DNA from: Novosphingobium sp. SG919
GTDB taxonomy: Bacteria > Pseudomonadota > Alphaproteobacteria > Sphingomonadales > Sphingomonadaceae
NCBI RefSeq assembly: GCF_012932495.1
Contig: NZ_JABCNG010000006.1
Coordinates: forward strand, 124,001-188,000
DNA length: 64,000 nt
Direction: 5' to 3'
Below, piece by piece: positions 52,811-59,643 of the stretch. Numbering within the stretch: position 1 is the stretch's first letter; each line of letters begins with the position of its first letter. The position numbers and the translations under genes are program-made. The notes under the pieces are model-generated. The model made no database searches. It saw nothing but the letters and a program-made list of their open reading frames with translations, and was not told the DNA's origin.

Positions 52811-53713
52811 TTATGGGGTATTCCGCCAGCGCGCGAAGATCGCCGTGGGCAGCACGCGCCCGCCCGGCCCTTCCTCGGCCCCCTCTTCGGCAATGCCCAG
52901 GTCACCATGCTCGATCGTGCCGGGCAGGTGCGCCAGCGCCTCGGCGAGCAGGCCGCCGATCGCCAGGCTCGACATGCGCACGGCATAGACCGTGAGGAAC
53001 AGGAAGCGGCTGTTTTCATCCAGCAGCTTGGCGCAATCGGCGATCAGGCCGGGCAGGCTTTCTTCCAGCCGCCACACTTCCCCTTCCGGGCCGCGCCCGA
53101 ACTTGGGGGGATCGAGAATGATCCCGTCGTAGCGCCTGCCGCGACGCACTTCACGCGCAGTGAACTTGGCCGCATCATCGACGATCCAGCGTACGGGCCG
53201 CGCGTCCATGCCCGAAAGCGCCGCGTTGGCCCGTGCCTGCGCCACCGATTTCTTGGATGCGTCGACATGGGTCACCGGGCCGAAGCGCGACAGCGCCAGG
53301 GTGCCCACGCCCGTATAGCCGAACAGGTTGAGCGTGGCGGCATCATCGCGGCCATCAAGCTGCGAGCCCATCCAGTCCCACACCGGGGCCATGTCGGGAA
53401 AAAAACCGAGATGGCGAAACGGCGTGCACGAGGCGGTGAAGCGCACGTCATTCCACGCCAGCGGCCAGCCTTCGCGCGGGACAGGCCGATCGAATAGCCA
53501 GCGGCCGCCGCCGTCCTCGTCGGAACCGGGCACGAATTCGCCATCGGCCTGCCAGTCGGCCAGCGCGGGCGCCCACATGGCCTGCGGCTCCGGACGAATG
53601 AAGCGATGTGGGCCATAGCGCTCCAGCTTGCGCCCATGGCCCGAATCGATGAGGGCGAAATCCCCCCAGGGCGATCCCACCATCAGTTGCGGCTGGAGCG
53701 TGAGAGCCGCCAT
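52811..53713 (-). CDS. Class I SAM-dependent rRNA methyltransferase (RlmI-like)
   Basis: The 300-residue enzyme has a C-terminal Rossmann methyltransferase domain: SAM motif LNLFGYTGVGTLALSRFG, acidic HVDASKKSVAQARANA, and the catalytic-strand motif IILDPPKFGRGPEGEV. This is the RlmI/RlmK-like COG1092 type that modifies cytosine or guanine in 23S rRNA. The N-terminal PUA domain of RlmI is replaced by a shorter beta region. It starts within the thrC stop (one-base overlap), so it is co-translated with thrC. Confidence 0.87.
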   Translation of the reverse strand: MAALTLQPQLMVGSPWGDFALIDSGHGRKLERYGPHRFIRPEPQAMWAPALADWQADGEFVPGSDEDGGGRWLFDRPVPREGWPLAWNDVRFTASCTPFRHLGFFPDMAPVWDWMGSQLDGRDDAATLNLFGYTGVGTLALSRFGPVTHVDASKKSVAQARANAALSGMDARPVRWIVDDAAKFTAREVRRGRRYDGIILDPPKFGRGPEGEVWRLEESLPGLIADCAKLLDENSRFLFLTVYAVRMSSLAIGGLLAEALAHLPGTIEHGDLGIAEEGAEEGPGGRVLPTAIFARWRNTP

Positions 53714-55143
53714 CAGCCGTTCTTCTGGCCGGTCTTGAGCCCCGTCTTGGGCGTCGCGCGCGCAGCGACATAGGCGGAAACCGCCTCATAAGTGCCGGGC
53801 AGGTGGTCGCAACGCTCCTCGCGGTCGAACAGGTCGCCCACCCGCGCGGGCAACGGCGGGCGCACACCGGTGGCGCGTTCCACCGCATCGACGAACTTGG
53901 CCGGATGGGCCGTGGCCAGCGTCACCACGGGTACGTCGGCGGGCAGATCGTCGGCCACGCGCGCGGCATGCAGGCCGATCGCGGTGTGCGGATCGAGCAC
54001 TTCGCCGGCCGCTTCATAAGCCCAGCGCATCGTCTGGGCCATTTGCGCCGGATCGCAACGCGCGCTGGAAAACAGCGAACCGATCGCCTCGCGCTGGGCA
54101 TTGGTGAGTTGCAGCGCCTTGGTCGCATCGAACTGTTGCATCTGCGCGGCGAGCACGCCGGCATCGCGGCCGCAGGCGTCGAACAGCAGGCGCTCGAAGT
54201 TGGAAGAGACCTGGATGTCCATCGACGGCGCGGCCGTGGGCGTCACGGTGCTGGCCGAATAGTCCCCTGCCGAGAGCGCGCGGTGCAAAATGTCGTTGAT
54301 GTTGGTGGCCACGATCAGCCGCTCTACCGGCAGGCCCATGCGGGCGGCGACATAGCCGGCGAACACGTCGCCGAAATTGCCGGTGGGCACCGAAAACGCC
54401 ACCTTGCGGTGCGGGGCGCCCAGTTGCAGCGCGGCGGCAAAGTAATAGACCACCTGCGACATGAGCCGCGCCCAGTTGATCGAATTGACCGCGGCAATGC
54501 CGAACGTGCCGGTCATCGCGGCATCGTTGAACATGCGCTTCACCATCGCCTGCGCGTCGTCGAAACTGCCGTCGATGGCGATGTTGTAGACGTTGGGCGC
54601 GATCACCGTGGTCATCTGGCGGCGCTGCACGTCGGACACGCGGCCTTCGGGATGGAGCATGAAGATATCCACCTTGGCGCGGCCGGCCACGGCATCGATC
54701 GCGGCAGAGCCGGTATCGCCCGAGGTGGCGCCCACGATGGTCAGGTGATCCTCGCGCCGGGCCAGGAATTCCTCGAACAGCAGGCCCAGCATCTGCAGCG
54801 CCACGTCCTTGAACGCCAGGGTGGGGCCATGGAACAGTTCGAGCACCCAGTGGCGTTCGTCCAGCTGCTTGAGCGGGGTGACGCCGGCATGGGCAAAGCG
54901 GCCATAGGCGGTGGCCGTCAATTCACGCAGCCGCTCGGGCGAAAGGCTGTCACCCACGAAAGGCGCCATGATCCGCGCGGCCAGCTCGGCATAGGGCAAC
55001 CCGGCCATGGCGGCGATTTCTTCGTGGCTGAACTGCGGCCAGGCTTCGGGAACGTAGAGGCCACCGTCGGACGCAAGGCCCGCCAGCGTGACGCCTTCGA
55101 AATCGAGCGAGGCGGCCTGCCCCCGCGTGCTGACATACTTCAT
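53713..55143 (-). CDS. thrC: Threonine synthase
   Basis: The 476-residue PLP enzyme converts O-phosphohomoserine to threonine. It has the start MKYVSTRGQAASLDFEGVTL, the PLP lysine Lys112 in HGPTLAFKDVALQ, the phosphate-binding GATSGDTGSAA and FSVPTGNFGDVFAGY. The length is that of the bacterial class with an N-terminal domain. The ATG at 55143 is chosen from the family start; the upstream open frame is not conserved. It follows surf1 after 55 bases. Confidence 0.97.
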   Translation of the reverse strand: MKYVSTRGQAASLDFEGVTLAGLASDGGLYVPEAWPQFSHEEIAAMAGLPYAELAARIMAPFVGDSLSPERLRELTATAYGRFAHAGVTPLKQLDERHWVLELFHGPTLAFKDVALQMLGLLFEEFLARREDHLTIVGATSGDTGSAAIDAVAGRAKVDIFMLHPEGRVSDVQRRQMTTVIAPNVYNIAIDGSFDDAQAMVKRMFNDAAMTGTFGIAAVNSINWARLMSQVVYYFAAALQLGAPHRKVAFSVPTGNFGDVFAGYVAARMGLPVERLIVATNINDILHRALSAGDYSASTVTPTAAPSMDIQVSSNFERLLFDACGRDAGVLAAQMQQFDATKALQLTNAQREAIGSLFSSARCDPAQMAQTMRWAYEAAGEVLDPHTAIGLHAARVADDLPADVPVVTLATAHPAKFVDAVERATGVRPPLPARVGDLFDREERCDHLPGTYEAVSAYVAARATPKTGLKTGQKNG

Positions 55144-55198
55144 CGCCAATCCCCGTGTGCCGCGCGCTGCGTGCCCGCCGCCAGTGTTGGTGGGGCGC

Positions 55199-55837
55199 CT
55201 AGCCTTCCGGGGCGGATGTGACAACCACTCGCGAAGCTTTCACCGGTCCGTCTTTCGCGCGCCGGCGCAGGGCGAGCGGATAGATCACCAGGGCCACGGC
55301 GGCGAACAGGAACCATTGCACAGCATAGGCCAGGTGGTTGTTGGGAATGTCAGACGGGTCGGGCTGGGCGTTGGCATCGAGCCCGGCCAGCGGCGGATCG
55401 GCGATCAGGCGGGTGATCTTGTGGAACGGCGCGATTCGGCCCGTCACGCGGCCGCCGCCCCATTCCGGCGGGTGCGGATCGCGCGACCAGCCAAGCTGGA
55501 CCAGCGCCGGCGTGCCATCGGCCGTTTCACAATGCGCGATATGGACATAGCCGCTGTCCCCGCCCGCGTTGCGGCCGGCCACCGAATCCCACAAGCCCGG
55601 CTGCACCCGGCAATCGAACCTGGCCCGGCGATAGAGCACCGCGCTGCCATCCCCTGACACCGGAAACGCCACCTGCGCGGGATTCACGAGCGCGGCGGCA
55701 TAGCGAGCCAGCAGGTGTTCCTTCTGCGCCTTGCGCTGCAATTGCCAGAAACCCAGGCCGATCATCGTGGCAACCGCCAGCAGCACGACGATCGTGGGTA
55801 GTACGGGAAGCCGGAACGGCGCGGGCCGGTGGGGCAT
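55199..55837 (-). CDS. SURF1-family cytochrome oxidase assembly protein
   Basis: The 212-residue inner-membrane protein has a first membrane helix (TIVVLLAVATMIGLGFWQLQ) with the family motif GFWQLQRKAQKE, a periplasmic domain, and a second helix (LAYAVQWFLFAAVALVIYPL) with the conserved NHLAYAVQWF. SURF1 helps insert haem a into aa3-type oxidase. It overlaps the DUF983 gene by one base. Oxidase subunit genes normally precede this pair but are not in the window. Confidence 0.92.
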   Translation of the reverse strand: MPHRPAPFRLPVLPTIVVLLAVATMIGLGFWQLQRKAQKEHLLARYAAALVNPAQVAFPVSGDGSAVLYRRARFDCRVQPGLWDSVAGRNAGGDSGYVHIAHCETADGTPALVQLGWSRDPHPPEWGGGRVTGRIAPFHKITRLIADPPLAGLDANAQPDPSDIPNNHLAYAVQWFLFAAVALVIYPLALRRRAKDGPVKASRVVVTSAPEG

Positions 55838-56223
55838 CAGCGCTGCCCGCGCGGGGCCACGCGCGCCGCCAGCACGGCCGCCCGCGTGGCACGCACGGCA
55901 AGGCCCACCAGCAAGGCGCTGGCCGGCCCCCACACCACGGGATAGACCCACAGCGGCAAGCGCCAGATATCGTCCACGCGCAGTGCGGAAAAAACCAGCA
56001 GCGCCAAAAGCGGAATGACCACCGGATAGAGCGCGCGGCCGCTGGCCTCGTGCACGGCCAGGGCCTCGCCGCAGGTGCGGCAATGATCGGCGAGCTTGGG
56101 GGGCTCCCACACGCGGCCGGCCCAGACCATGCCTGGCGTGCCGCAAGCCGGGCATGTCCCAGCGCGCGCCACCTGCCACCAGCCGGGCCCGTTTGCCGGC
56201 CCGCTACCGCTGCTATCGTTCAT
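55837..56223 (-). CDS. DUF983 membrane protein
   Basis: The 128-residue protein has an N-terminal zinc-ribbon-like pair of CxxC motifs (CPACG and CRTCG in residues 24-55), followed by two membrane helices (YPVVIPLLALLVFSALR and VYPVVWGPASALLVGL). DUF983 proteins usually sit in cytochrome-oxidase loci beside surf1, as here, and may help oxidase assembly. An oxidase link is inferred only from this neighbourhood. Confidence 0.88.
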   Translation of the reverse strand: MNDSSGSGPANGPGWWQVARAGTCPACGTPGMVWAGRVWEPPKLADHCRTCGEALAVHEASGRALYPVVIPLLALLVFSALRVDDIWRLPLWVYPVVWGPASALLVGLAVRATRAAVLAARVAPRGQR

Positions 56224-56271: not shown

Positions 56272-57711
56272 TCAGGCCGCCAGCGGCAGGCACAGCGTCG
56301 CGGTAAGGCCGGTGATGCGGCCAGCCTCCCAGCGATTGGCAAGAACCAGCGAGCCGCCGTGCTGGTCGGCAATCGCGCGCGCCAGGGTCAGGCCCAGGCC
56401 GGTGCCGCCCGTGGCCGTGTTGCGCGAGGCTTCCAGCCGGGTGAACGGCTCCATCATGCGCAGGATATCGCCTTCGGGAATACCAGGGCCATCATCCTCG
56501 ATGCGCAGCACCGCCTCGGCCCCTTCGCGCGCCAGCGAGACGCGCGCGCGCTGGCCATAGCGCAGGGCGTTGGACACCAGGTTGCGCATCGCACGGCGCA
56601 GCCAGGTGGCGCGCAGCGGCAAGACGATGCGCACGGTGTCTTCCAGCGTCACGTCCTCGCCCATGTCCTCGTATTCGCCCATCACATCGGCGACGAGCGC
56701 GGAAAGCTCGGTGGTTTCAAGCGGGTCGGACGGGCGCCCGACGCGAGCGAGCGAGAGAATGTCGTCGAGCGAACGATTGATGTCCTCGATCGTGGCGGCC
56801 ATGCGCGCCCGTTCGGTATCATCCTCCACCGCCTCGATCCGCACGCGCAGCGCGGCGAGCGGGGTCTTGAGATCGTGGCCGATCGCGCCCAGCATCACGT
56901 CCTTTTCATCGAGCAGGGCAATGATGCGCCCTTCCATGGCGTTGTGCGCCACGATCAGGCGGCGGATGTCATCCGGTCCCTCGGGTTCCAGCTGGCCATC
57001 GGCACTGCGTTCGCGGGCAAAGGCTTCTACCCGGCCGGTCAAGGCCTTCAGGGGACGGGCGATGCGCCGCAGGATCAGCGCGACCGCCCCTACCAGCACG
57101 AGATAGAGCAGCACCGTCTGCATCAGCAACGACAGGATCACCTGGCGTTCGTTGGCCGGGGCCAGGATGCGCGCGGTCAACCACGTGCCGTCGGGCCGCT
57201 GGATCGAGGCGATGATCAGGCGCGCATCGGGGTGATGGTCGCCATAGCTTTCCAGCCGCTTGCTGACATTGCCGAACCACGGCCCGACGATGGCATCGGT
57301 GCGGGGATCGCGCTCCACCACCAGCACCTGGCGATGGACAAGCCCCTGGGTGTCGAGCACGTCGTGCAGCGCACCGGCCACGTCGTCGCGCTGCCGGTCC
57401 CCAGCCTGTGCGGGAGACTGCGCATCCACCCGCACGCGCAGGGGGCGCGGCAGGCGCCAGATGTCATCGGGCGGTGGCGGCCCATGCGGCCGGCCGTCCG
57501 GGCCATGGCTGTCGCGCGGGGGCTGGCCGATCAGGCGGAAAGCCGCCTCGTTGACCGTCAACTGCACGCGCCGCTCGTTCTGCTCGCGCCAGATCAGCCC
57601 GGCCGAAAGCCCCTGCGCCACCAGCAGCGCCAGGGCGATGGCCAGCAGCATCTGCCCTTGCAGGCTGCGTGGGGTGCGCGAAAGCGTCCAGGCGGGAAAG
57701 CGCCACATCAA
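56272..57711 (-). CDS. EnvZ-type sensor histidine kinase
   Basis: The 479-residue kinase has membrane helices at about 20-40 and 192-215 and a periplasmic domain of about 150 residues. That domain starts with a His/Pro/Asp-rich segment (SHGPDGRPHGPPPPDD) and includes VVERDPRTDAIVGPWFG. HAMP and HisKA follow, with the phosphorylated His279 in GHDLKTPLAALRV, N box NLVSNALRYG and G boxes DDGPGIPE and GTGLGLTLARAI. It phosphorylates the response regulator whose gene overlaps its start by four bases. The Asp/His-rich sensor suggests metal or calcium sensing. Confidence 0.92.
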   Translation of the reverse strand: MMWRFPAWTLSRTPRSLQGQMLLAIALALLVAQGLSAGLIWREQNERRVQLTVNEAAFRLIGQPPRDSHGPDGRPHGPPPPDDIWRLPRPLRVRVDAQSPAQAGDRQRDDVAGALHDVLDTQGLVHRQVLVVERDPRTDAIVGPWFGNVSKRLESYGDHHPDARLIIASIQRPDGTWLTARILAPANERQVILSLLMQTVLLYLVLVGAVALILRRIARPLKALTGRVEAFARERSADGQLEPEGPDDIRRLIVAHNAMEGRIIALLDEKDVMLGAIGHDLKTPLAALRVRIEAVEDDTERARMAATIEDINRSLDDILSLARVGRPSDPLETTELSALVADVMGEYEDMGEDVTLEDTVRIVLPLRATWLRRAMRNLVSNALRYGQRARVSLAREGAEAVLRIEDDGPGIPEGDILRMMEPFTRLEASRNTATGGTGLGLTLARAIADQHGGSLVLANRWEAGRITGLTATLCLPLAA

Positions 57712-58439
57712 TCGCGGCCCGCCACCTTGCGCACTTCGGCCGCAAGCATGTAGCCACCCCCCCAGACCGTCTGGATCAGTTGCGGATTGCGGCTGTCTTC
57801 CTCGATCTTGCGACGCAGGCGGCTGATCTGGTTGTCCACCGCGCGATCGAACAAGTGCGCTTCGCGGCCCTGGACCATATCGAGCAGGCGATCGCGATCG
57901 AGTACCTGGCGCGGATGATCGAGAAAGGCCATGAGCAGGCGGAACTCGGCCGAGGAAATCGCCACGACCGCGCCCTCGCGGTCGGTCAGCCGGCGTTTGA
58001 GCGGATCGAGCGTCCAGCCTTCGAATTCATAGACTAGGGCTTCGGGCGCCTCGGTCGCCACGCGCGCGCTGCGCCGCAGGACCGACCGGATGCGCGCCAC
58101 CAGTTCGCGCGGGTCGAACGGCTTGACCACGTAATCGTCGCCGCCAATTTCCAGGCCGACGATGCGATCGGTGGATTCGCCCTTGGCAGTGATGAAGATC
58201 ACCGGCAGCGCGCGGCTTTCCGCCAGATGGCGGCACAGCGACAGGCCATCTTCGCCCGGCATCATGATGTCGAGCAGAACGAGGTCGAACGTATCGGCTG
58301 CGATGCGCGCGCGCGCTTCCACCGCATTGCCGGCCTGGGTCACGGCAAAGCCCTGGCGGACCAGATAGTCCGCCAGCACTTCGCGCAAGGCCGCTTCGTC
58401 ATCGACCAGCAGGATGCTGGTTGCCGCTGCTTCACTCAT
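57708..58439 (-). CDS. OmpR-type response regulator
   Basis: The 243-residue regulator has a complete receiver (acidic pair LVDDEA, phosphoacceptor Asp57 in LVLLDIMMPGEDG, Lys106 in VVKPFDP) and an OmpR winged helix (residues about 140-235: ISSAEFRLLMAFLDHPRQVL, then VDNQISRLRRKIEEDSRNP). It lies 18 bases downstream of an exported EF-hand protein gene and overlaps its kinase gene. Confidence 0.93.
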   Translation of the reverse strand: MSEAAATSILLVDDEAALREVLADYLVRQGFAVTQAGNAVEARARIAADTFDLVLLDIMMPGEDGLSLCRHLAESRALPVIFITAKGESTDRIVGLEIGGDDYVVKPFDPRELVARIRSVLRRSARVATEAPEALVYEFEGWTLDPLKRRLTDREGAVVAISSAEFRLLMAFLDHPRQVLDRDRLLDMVQGREAHLFDRAVDNQISRLRRKIEEDSRNPQLIQTVWGGGYMLAAEVRKVAGRD

Positions 58440-58457
58440 GCCCGAATGGCCCGATGG

Positions 58458-59186
58458 TCAGTTGCCAGCCGGTGGCGGGGGCGGCGGCATGTCGTCGCCG
58501 TCACCCGGAGGGGGCGGCGGGCCATCCATGCGTTCGCCATCGCGGCCGCGCGGGCCGCCCTTGTGGGGCCCGTGCGGTCCGCCGTTGCGGCCGAACGCGG
58601 CGCGGATTTCATCGCGGGTAAGCTTGCCATCATGGTTGGTGTCGGCCTTGTCGAATTGAGACTTGACCGCCGCATCATACGCAGCGCGGGTGACGGCGCC
58701 ATCCTTGTCGCGCAACGCATCGTGCAAAACCGGCCCCAGCAAGCCCATTCCTGCGGGCCGCGGCGGCATGCCAGGGCGGCCATCGCGCGAGCCCGGCCCG
58801 TCGCTGCCGGGCGGCGGCGGGGGCGGCATGGCGCCATCAGGCCCCGGATGCGGGCCGTGGCCCGGCTTCATGGCGCGATGGTGGGCGAGGAATTCGTCGC
58901 GGCTGATCACGCCATCATGGTTGGCATCGATGGCATCGAACCGCTCGATCAGGCGCGCATCGCGATCTGCCTGGTCGATCTTGCCATCCTTGTTCACGTC
59001 CATCCGCTGCCACAGGGCGTCTGCCTGGGCCTTGGCATCAGCCCAGGTGATCGTGCCATCGCCATTGGGACCGCCGGCAAAGCGGGCCGGATCGGCACCA
59101 GGGCCGGCCGGGGCAGCGGCGCAAAGCACACCGGCACCCGCCACGGCGACAACCGCCGTAGACAGACCGAGCACGAGTTTCTTCAT
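58458..59186 (-). CDS. Exported EF-hand calcium-binding protein
   Basis: The 242-residue protein has a signal peptide (LVLGLSTAVVAVAGAGVLCA) and several EF-hand loops. Three are complete: DVNKDGKIDQAD (63-74), DANHDGVISRDE (87-98) and DTNHDGKLTRDE (182-193). Two are partial: NGDGTITWAD near residue 41 and DKDGAVTRAA near 160. Between and after are Gly/Pro/His-rich low-complexity stretches (GHGPHPGPDG, PPPPPPG). It is the first gene of an operon with a two-component system, so it may sense, buffer or be regulated by calcium in the periplasm. Confidence 0.9.
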   Translation of the reverse strand: MKKLVLGLSTAVVAVAGAGVLCAAAPAGPGADPARFAGGPNGDGTITWADAKAQADALWQRMDVNKDGKIDQADRDARLIERFDAIDANHDGVISRDEFLAHHRAMKPGHGPHPGPDGAMPPPPPPGSDGPGSRDGRPGMPPRPAGMGLLGPVLHDALRDKDGAVTRAAYDAAVKSQFDKADTNHDGKLTRDEIRAAFGRNGGPHGPHKGGPRGRDGERMDGPPPPPGDGDDMPPPPPPAGN

Positions 59187-59643
59187 TTCGGCAAGCTCCC
59201 GAAGAATTCAGGCCGTTCGCCATCGAGGGCGCGACGGCAGGCGTAAGGGGGATGAGGAAGCTGCGGCGCCGCCTTGCCGAAAGAGGCTAGGGACTAAGGG
59301 GGGAGGGACACCCCTTCCGGCCGTGGGGACTGAGGTGGCGGGCACCGCAGCTTCCATGTCCCAATATATAGTCGGCGGATGTCGCGCGATTATGTCGGCG
59401 CAGGGGGTATTTTGTCGCCAATTGTCGCATGGTGTTGCTGGCGCCCCAGGCAGCGGAACAGCTGCATCATTTTATATATAAATCAAATCTTTAAAATTAT
59501 AAAAGCGGCGATATCCGGCCGGTGATGCGGGGTTGCCGGCCGCATTTCCCAGGCTTGGGTGCAATTCGGCTGAAACATGGCCGATACATTCGCGACAGGC
59601 CGGGATCGGCCCGGCCTGCGCCCGAACGCTTCGTATGCCGCGC
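59187..59643. other. Promoter region of the EF-hand/two-component operon
   Basis: These 457 bases contain no gene. They include the WTGTCGC repeat array at 59371-59428, an AT-rich tract at 59470-59505, and a hairpin CAGGCCGGG/CCCGGCCTG at 59596-59618 near the end of the VOC gene. Confidence 0.6.
59371..59428. promoter_or_regulatory. Array of GTCGC/GTCGG direct repeats, candidate response-regulator sites
   Basis: On the plus strand GTCGG is at 59371, ATGTCGC at 59379-59385, ATGTCGG at 59392-59398, and TTGTCGC at 59412-59418 and 59422-59428. The last two are exactly ten bases apart. OmpR-family regulators bind such helical-phase direct repeats. The array is about 185-245 bases upstream of the EF-hand gene start. 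Confidence 0.45.

Follow-up and report, generated by a model that had tools for sequence, protein, structure and literature searches.

Among the closest described counterparts of the locus considered here is EfhP of Pseudomonas aeruginosa, an EF-hand Ca2+ sensor whose gene depends for its regulation on the two-component system CarSR (BqsSR), according to the available part of the report (PMC11559002). A three-gene operon of Novosphingobium sp. SG919, located in the 64,000-nucleotide stretch of DNA that was analyzed as a whole (the window, taken from a contig of 453 kb in a genome of 5.45 Mb), likewise pairs an EF-hand protein with a two-component system, on which transcription depends in the EfhP case. 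It differs in that the EF-hand, regulator, and kinase genes make up one conserved unit in sphingomonads, whereas EfhP and CarSR are presented, in the same available part, as separately found components with no shared operon stated (PMC11559002); for the sphingomonad operon, a Ca2+ response is putative. Among alphaproteobacteria, the CaBP–sigV pair of Caulobacter vibrioides also ties a periplasmic EF-hand protein, in that case a 133-residue protein with three hands and a Sec signal, to a transcription regulator, which there, unlike in the sphingomonad operon, is a sigma factor (PMC13171946, as far as the available text goes), and the EF-hand gene SGRAN_2273 of Sphingopyxis granuli is placed under the general stress response in the available part of another report (PMC7083833). 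The sphingomonad locus has a conserved operon, a conserved promoter array, and a covarying leader hairpin, and it is proposed here, with a probability of roughly 55%, that it constitutes a Sphingomonadaceae-wide, self-regulated envelope-signaling operon, in which the exported metal-binding protein acts as a co-sensor or feedback partner and to which a layer of RNA control is added. Among the matches listed from the open-access literature, no title or abstract on EF-hand proteins and two-component systems in sphingomonads describes the present operon, nor, among those on Sphingomonadales RNA motifs, the leader hairpin.

The operon is transcribed from the minus strand in the order EF-hand, regulator, kinase:

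58458-59186, minus strand: gene of the EF-hand protein, 242 amino acids, predicted from its sequence to be exported (open reading frame, Pfam, orthologues)
57708-58439, minus strand: gene of the OmpR-type response regulator, 243 amino acids (open reading frame, Pfam, NCBIfam)
56272-57708, minus strand: gene of the EnvZ-like sensor histidine kinase (open reading frame, Pfam, NCBIfam, AlphaFold model)

The stop codon of the EF-hand gene is separated from the ATG of the regulator by 18 bases, and the ATG of the kinase (57706-57708, with an alternative TTG at 57709-57711) overlaps the stop codon of the regulator; the reading-frame coordinates and Pfam thus bear out the three-gene layout (EF-hand gene, 18-base gap, regulator, overlapping kinase) given in a first-pass annotation of the same DNA. 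The EF-hand protein belongs to the EF-hand superfamily, matching EF-hand_5 in three stretches (2.3e-18; 65.1 bits versus a cut-off of 25.9) and EF-hand_1 (63.7 bits versus 25.4), and the regulator, with a receiver (Response_reg, 1e-29) and a winged-helix domain (Trans_reg_C, 1.6e-22), is of the OmpR/PhoB type. In the kinase, Pfam recognizes HATPase_c (1.1e-22) and HisKA (2.2e-6), together with a HAMP match (7.3e-5) that at 23.5 bits lies slightly below its cut-off of 25. Both proteins fall short of the NCBIfam equivalog cut-offs, the regulator that of OmpR (PRK09468, 245.1 bits versus 331) and the kinase that of EnvZ (PRK09467, 153 bits versus 415). The kinase is 91% identical to its counterparts in Novosphingobium capsulatum and N. 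pokkalii.

This neighborhood is a conserved unit and not a chance arrangement. A kinase match at E ≤ 1e-60 was found in 36 of 37 same-genus genomes (the exception, G026, gave no match), and in all 36 of these loci the EF-hand gene stands directly before the regulator; across the Sphingomonadaceae, the order EF-hand–regulator–kinase is kept in 92 of 96 loci, a sample composed of the 36 same-genus loci and 60 obtained from family kinase matches, four of which are again same-genus. What the first-pass annotation had read as a single operon of an EF-hand gene and an EnvZ/OmpR-type system therefore holds at both the genus and the family level. At E ≤ 1e-50, the kinase has a match in 200 of 298 family genomes, representing 64 of 91 genera. 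Among 80 loci from titled records, which overlap the same-genus set and 77 of which extend at least 2500 bases past the kinase, an EF-hand gene was called in 73, ending 5–118 bases before the regulator match in 70 of them; the remaining loci comprise four that are cut short, two without a called start, and one (L362) with room for the gene but no EF-hand match.

The region upstream of the EF-hand gene carries a second conserved feature, an array of four half-sites followed by a −10-like element:

59408-59429, minus strand: half-sites 1 and 2 of a regulator-type box, 10 bp apart, TGCGACAATTGGCGACAAAATA (promoter alignment)
59379-59397, minus strand: half-sites 3 and 4, CGACATAATCGCGCGACAT (promoter alignment)
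59366-59371, minus strand: putative −10-like element CTATAT (most relatives have one resembling CTAGAA), from which a transcription start site is predicted

The order of elements in these promoters is TGCGACAATTGGCGACAA, then a GGCATAATCGCGCGACAA-like stretch (CGACATAATCGCGCGACAT in the window), 7–8 bases, and CTAGAA or CTATAT. The GACA-N6-GACA core is present in 32 of 34 genus promoters (34 and not 36, because L099 and L102 have no called start), in 33 of 54 family promoters, and in 67 of 72 promoters from titled records, a sample that shares members with the genus set. Two control stretches taken from these loci contain it in 1 of 88 and 0 of 87 cases, and dinucleotide shuffles of the promoters give an average of 0.14–0.27. 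In the 132 core-bearing promoters, the distance from the second to the fourth GACA is 32 bases in 84 cases and 33 in 43. Inspection by eye of the 21 family promoters failing the strict core revealed that in 18 one half-site is altered (GATACA or GTTACA) and in two both are, none being found in the stretch shown for L167. Since the half-sites follow one another in steps of about 10, 21–22, and 11 bp, all of them lie on one face of the helix, an arrangement suited to OmpR/PhoB-type proteins, which require half-sites so placed. The conserved OmpR-type array makes autoregulation likely, and the operon's own regulator is the probable binder of the four half-sites. It has to be mentioned that a promoter scan returned one sigma-70-like match, GCGACA-18-CATAAT, which would turn half-sites 2 and 3 into the −35 and −10 elements of an alternative promoter.

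Within the Novosphingobium sp. SG919 genome, GACAWWNNGCGACAA occurs exactly at two sites (at one in the reversed control), the EF-hand operon and another (L192/L245) that is followed by neither proximal half-sites nor a −10-like element. The proximal half, searched with up to 3 mismatches, occurs at 20 places versus 2 in the reversed control, and only the EF-hand operon promoter among them also has the core and the −10-like element, by which a wide regulon in this genome is rejected. When the distal box was searched with up to 2 mismatches in eight genomes, 35 places were obtained versus 6 in the reversed controls, and the recurrent target besides the operon is a gene for a small RNA.

That conserved small-RNA gene lies outside the window in the same genome (G000:C6:256502-256625, plus strand) and contains GUUUCCCCCCUGUUGCCC as well as a hairpin resembling a terminator, further copies being found at L234, L235, L241, L252, L254, L255, and L262. 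It is present in 23 of the 38 genomes searched, all within the genus, and is followed in four loci by an exonuclease III-like gene, presumably xthA, with an Exo_endo_phos match in L241. Four of its loci gave no Rfam match at the gathering score, and for two the matches obtained up to E 5 were weak and unrelated. Its identity as 6S RNA was rejected, as the best matches of the 6S model (in G015 and G024), slightly below the gathering score, lie elsewhere. The sharing of promoter elements raises an alternative explanation of the array, namely that it serves a broader regulator which also drives the small-RNA gene, while the regulator encoded in the operon has other targets. Consistent with this, the distal-box core occurs in 11 of 18 small-RNA promoters, and the spacing to a CTAGAA element is much like that in the operon; however, the proximal half-sites of the two kinds of promoter differ, and the copy in the SG919 genome has a degenerate box. 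This explanation is considered unlikely.

Downstream of the array, and in keeping with the proposed additional layer of control in the putatively autoregulated operon, the leader of the messenger RNA contains an extended hairpin:

59256-59355, minus strand: leader RNA hairpin with a stem of up to 18 pairs, its arms including 59341-59355 and 59256-59270 (folding; covariation in relatives)
59296-59308, minus strand: C-rich stretch inside the hairpin, UCCCUCCCCCCUU (sequence and folding)
59196-59200, minus strand: Shine-Dalgarno-like GGGAG ahead of the EF-hand start (sequence)

A hairpin stem was scored in 71 of the 86 leaders found behind a −10-like element, and in 58 of these 71 it begins 14 or 15 bases past the T of the TAGA-like element. 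Two alignments were used to assess it. The first (A1), chosen by length, holds 51 of 54 leaders of 85–135 bases with a kinase identity above 47% (L162, L163, and L175 were dropped by eye), and RNAalifold finds in it an 11-pair stem with changes on both sides in 10 of the 11 pairs. The second (A2, the hairpin set, from which the model R1 was built) holds 51 of the 71 stem-positive leaders, covering 25 genera, after six longer than 85 bases, including that of the window, and 14 that were long-loop, outlying, or mis-anchored (L158) had been left out. Compensatory changes on both sides are seen in 13 of 14 pairs of the hairpin set (10.1 on average after shuffling; 4 of 500 shuffles attain the observed number), and 120 cells carry a both-side change as compared with 47.3 after shuffling (reached in 0 of 500), where it has to be noted that a set picked by folding favors paired cells and that related sequences can outdo shuffles. 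With the same proviso, 88.5% of the cells pair (73.8% shuffled, 37–49% slid), and the covariation is 0.548 (0.272 shuffled, at most 0.159 slid). The outer 11 pairs contain 68 G-U cells among 537 standard cells, and because G-U is thus tolerated on the leader strand, the element is read as RNA rather than as a DNA palindrome. The loops are distinctive as well, with CCUCC in 55 of 71 (shuffled mean 23, maximum 34 in 500 shuffles) and a median longest pyrimidine run of 14 versus 7 in shuffles.

Genome searches with model R1 gave 21 matches in 41 genomes, 17 of them at the EF-hand leader, and 19 in 38 family genomes, 14 of them at the operon. Every one of the 11 family matches with E < 0.001 is among these 14, the five elsewhere have E of 0.001–0.04, and no match occurred in the 15 family genomes without a kinase match. 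Six of these 38 genomes had supplied a training sequence, and eight operon matches besides that of the window come from genomes that had not (G062, G064, G066, G067, G072, G073, G079, and G088). Because the matches concentrate at the EF-hand operon, the hairpin is regarded as a locus-specific leader element and not a dispersed repeat. One match of the 41-genome search (G041:C1:1183268-1183318, E 0.0011) falls in another family of the order, in a genome without a kinase at E ≤ 1e-60. The leader of the window matches no Rfam 15 family up to E 5.

In summary, the leader hairpin is a structured RNA that has good support and occurs in a specific genetic setting, and it may function in post-transcriptional control, with stabilization of the 5′ end as the simplest alternative. 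The rhizobial small RNAs SmelA075 and SmelA099 have CCUCCUCCC loops in hairpins with variable stems, i.e. C-rich loops of the anti-Shine-Dalgarno type, as given in the available part of the report, and resemble the leader hairpin in both stem and loop; they are, however, trans-encoded and have three or four hairpins, whereas the sphingomonad element is a single hairpin in an mRNA leader (PMC3927594). By likeness to these rhizobial RNAs, pairing of the C-rich loop in trans is conceivable. A more far-reaching proposal is that the hairpin represents a new class of Sphingomonadaceae RNA regulator, produced along with the operon and exposing an anti-Shine-Dalgarno-like C-rich loop, which could act in cis as a decay or translation switch on the EF-hand gene or, once released, as a small RNA derived from the 5′ leader that pairs with other ribosome-binding sites. 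This proposal is held to be doubtful; if true, a single promoter would pass a metal signal from the envelope on to two arms, one of transcription and one of RNA.

Turning to the protein partners, the EF-hand protein of the window contains three canonical and two degenerate loops, in agreement with the three complete and two partial EF-hands counted in the first-pass annotation:

59037-59072, minus strand: degenerate EF loop GPNGDGTITWAD (sequence reading; intact in many orthologues)
58965-59000, minus strand: canonical EF loop 1, DVNKDGKIDQAD, with D at position 12 (loop scan)
58893-58928, minus strand: canonical EF loop 2, DANHDGVISRDE (loop scan)
58680-58715, minus strand: degenerate EF loop LRDKDGAVTRAA (sequence reading; intact in many orthologues, e.g. 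DANKDGxVTRAE)
58608-58643, minus strand: canonical EF loop 3, DTNHDGKLTRDE (loop scan)

The first canonical loop thus ends in D and not in E, and the N-terminus, MKKLVLGLSTAVVAVAGAGVLCAA, looks by eye like a signal peptide. Canonical loops are kept in all 88 orthologues with a called start, ranging from two to six (two in 1 protein, three in 10, four in 40, five in 20, and six in 17), i.e. mostly more than in the protein of the window. In the orthologues, the EF-hands form two closely spaced blocks with a variable Gly/Met/His/Pro-rich linker in between, and in the AlphaFold model of the window's protein confidence resides mainly in the two EF blocks. The richness of the linker in these residues is seen family-wide (58461-59186 and orthologues), and it might bind softer metals.

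The close spacing of the loops recalls lanmodulin, in which adjacent loops are 12 residues apart, as are two neighboring loops here, and it may be asked whether the bound metal is a lanthanide and the protein a lanmodulin relative. Lanmodulin is indeed the top fold match (8fns, probability 0.99 but E 0.07) and ranks third among solved structures by sequence (6mi5, 2.6e-11), and the NCBIfam lanmodulin model matches at 9.4e-16. That match, however, scores 58.1 bits, far under the cut-off of 135, and lanmodulin loops carry Pro at position 2, which none of the 394 canonical loops in the 88 orthologues has (those of the window have V, A, and T), while D at position 9 occurs in only 61 of the 394. 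Membership in the lanmodulin family was rejected on score and loop sequence, and the long Gly/Met/His/Pro-rich linkers and the tie to a two-component system set the protein further apart, which leaves a lanthanide-binding role highly improbable.

The part of the kinase expected to receive the signal comprises two regions of different quality in the AlphaFold model:

57160-57435, minus strand: compact alpha/beta periplasmic domain, kinase residues 92–183 (AlphaFold model)
57463-57507, minus strand: HGPDGRPHGPPPPDD stretch, kinase residues 68–82 (low confidence in the model, not conserved)

The model consists of a long helix (residues 16–60), the alpha/beta domain, a second long helix (187–232), and the kinase core, the membrane spans being placed by eye. 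Block means of the predicted local distance difference test (pLDDT) are 82–97 over residues 92–183, except for 74 at residues 151–160, and drop to 55–59 across residues 61–90, where the His/Asp/Pro stretch falls. The first-pass annotation had attached importance to this stretch, proposing in effect that the kinase senses Ca2+ through it while the EF-hand protein buffers periplasmic Ca2+. The stretch is present as described, and the intact EF-hand loops of the window and its relatives agree with such a scheme; its part in calcium sensing did not hold up, as most orthologues shown have an unrelated or shorter sequence in its place, with a Pro-rich counterpart only in near relatives (22 rows shown, including that of the window; conservation counted over 64). 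As a metal sensor the stretch was accordingly rejected, and sensing of Ca2+ through it is very unlikely; the calcium circuit as such is plausible, with one of its two supports failing. In PhoQ, the sensor domain has an acidic metal patch. Because D138 is the single acidic residue among the invariant or nearly invariant periplasmic positions of 54 kinase sequences, no PhoQ-like patch is conserved here. A sequence search with the sensor domain gave no match better than E 0.4, and the structure matches listed for the whole kinase all cover the kinase core, except for one integrative model of a whole protein (9a5d).

As to the surroundings of the operon, genes for DUF983, SURF1, and a threonine-synthase-like protein (53713-56223) follow closely on the same strand and are rare in relatives, DUF983 and SURF1 following in 2 of the 80 titled-record loci each and a thrC query matching in 1 of 80. 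On the upstream side, a glyoxalase gene was found in 59 and an M24 peptidase gene in 67 of the 80. These flanking genes indicate where the conserved unit ends.

In the model proposed for the self-regulated operon, the kinase, with two membrane helices and its small alpha/beta periplasmic domain, would phosphorylate the OmpR-type regulator, which would then bind the four helically phased half-sites upstream of the −10 element and activate transcription of all three genes in a positive autoregulatory loop. The EF-hand protein, once exported, would bind a divalent ion (Ca2+ being the most likely) and may act on the kinase as a co-sensor or negative-feedback partner. There are precedents in CpxP–CpxRA and ZraP–ZraSR, in which a periplasmic accessory protein is controlled by the kinase–regulator pair that it modulates; the EF-hand protein would be comparable to CpxP and ZraP as an accessory partner of the kinase, although neither is an EF-hand protein and ZraR is not of the OmpR type. 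The mRNA would open with the long hairpin, whose C-rich loop may impose post-transcriptional control on EF-hand protein synthesis, either via stability of the 5′ end or via the loop, which would pair with another RNA segment or be bound by a protein. Within this model, stronger results have been obtained for the promoter array and for the leader hairpin than for the calcium circuit, in which calcium is a putative signal and contact between the EF-hand protein and the kinase a predicted one.

Several observations weigh against the model. Four of the 96 loci (L171, L174, L184, and L185) have no EF-hand gene before the regulator, the kinase sensor domain has no acidic metal patch or cluster conserved in the 54 sequences, and another regulator might bind the distal half of the box, which also precedes the unrelated small-RNA gene. 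On the RNA side, the close relative L088 fails the stem criterion, model R1 finds no match at the EF-hand leader in 8 of 25 same-genus genomes and likewise none at the operon in 9 of 23 kinase-bearing family genomes, and pairing of the C-rich loop in cis with the operon's own Shine-Dalgarno sequence was rejected, being no better than permuted in 70 leaders (p = 0.33). Since the four loci keep the regulator and kinase, the kinase can exist without the EF-hand gene. This fact, together with the missing acidic patch and the position of the EF-hand gene at the head of the operon behind the conserved promoter, fits a different explanation, in which the two-component system responds to an envelope stress of another kind and the EF-hand protein is simply what it chiefly produces, buffering periplasmic Ca2+ or stabilizing the envelope without contacting the kinase. 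It is a realistic explanation, if a somewhat improbable one, as an output gene would not have to be linked so tightly as is seen in 92 of 96 loci. The four loci, with orthologues of the regulator and kinase but no EF-hand reading frame, offer natural controls for the role of the EF-hand protein.

Bacterial calcium signaling has few defined receptors, and a family-wide operon in which a kinase–regulator pair accompanies an EF-hand protein with a predicted export signal gives experiments a direct point of access in bacteria of environmental importance, with a promoter array that yields an immediately testable model of regulation.

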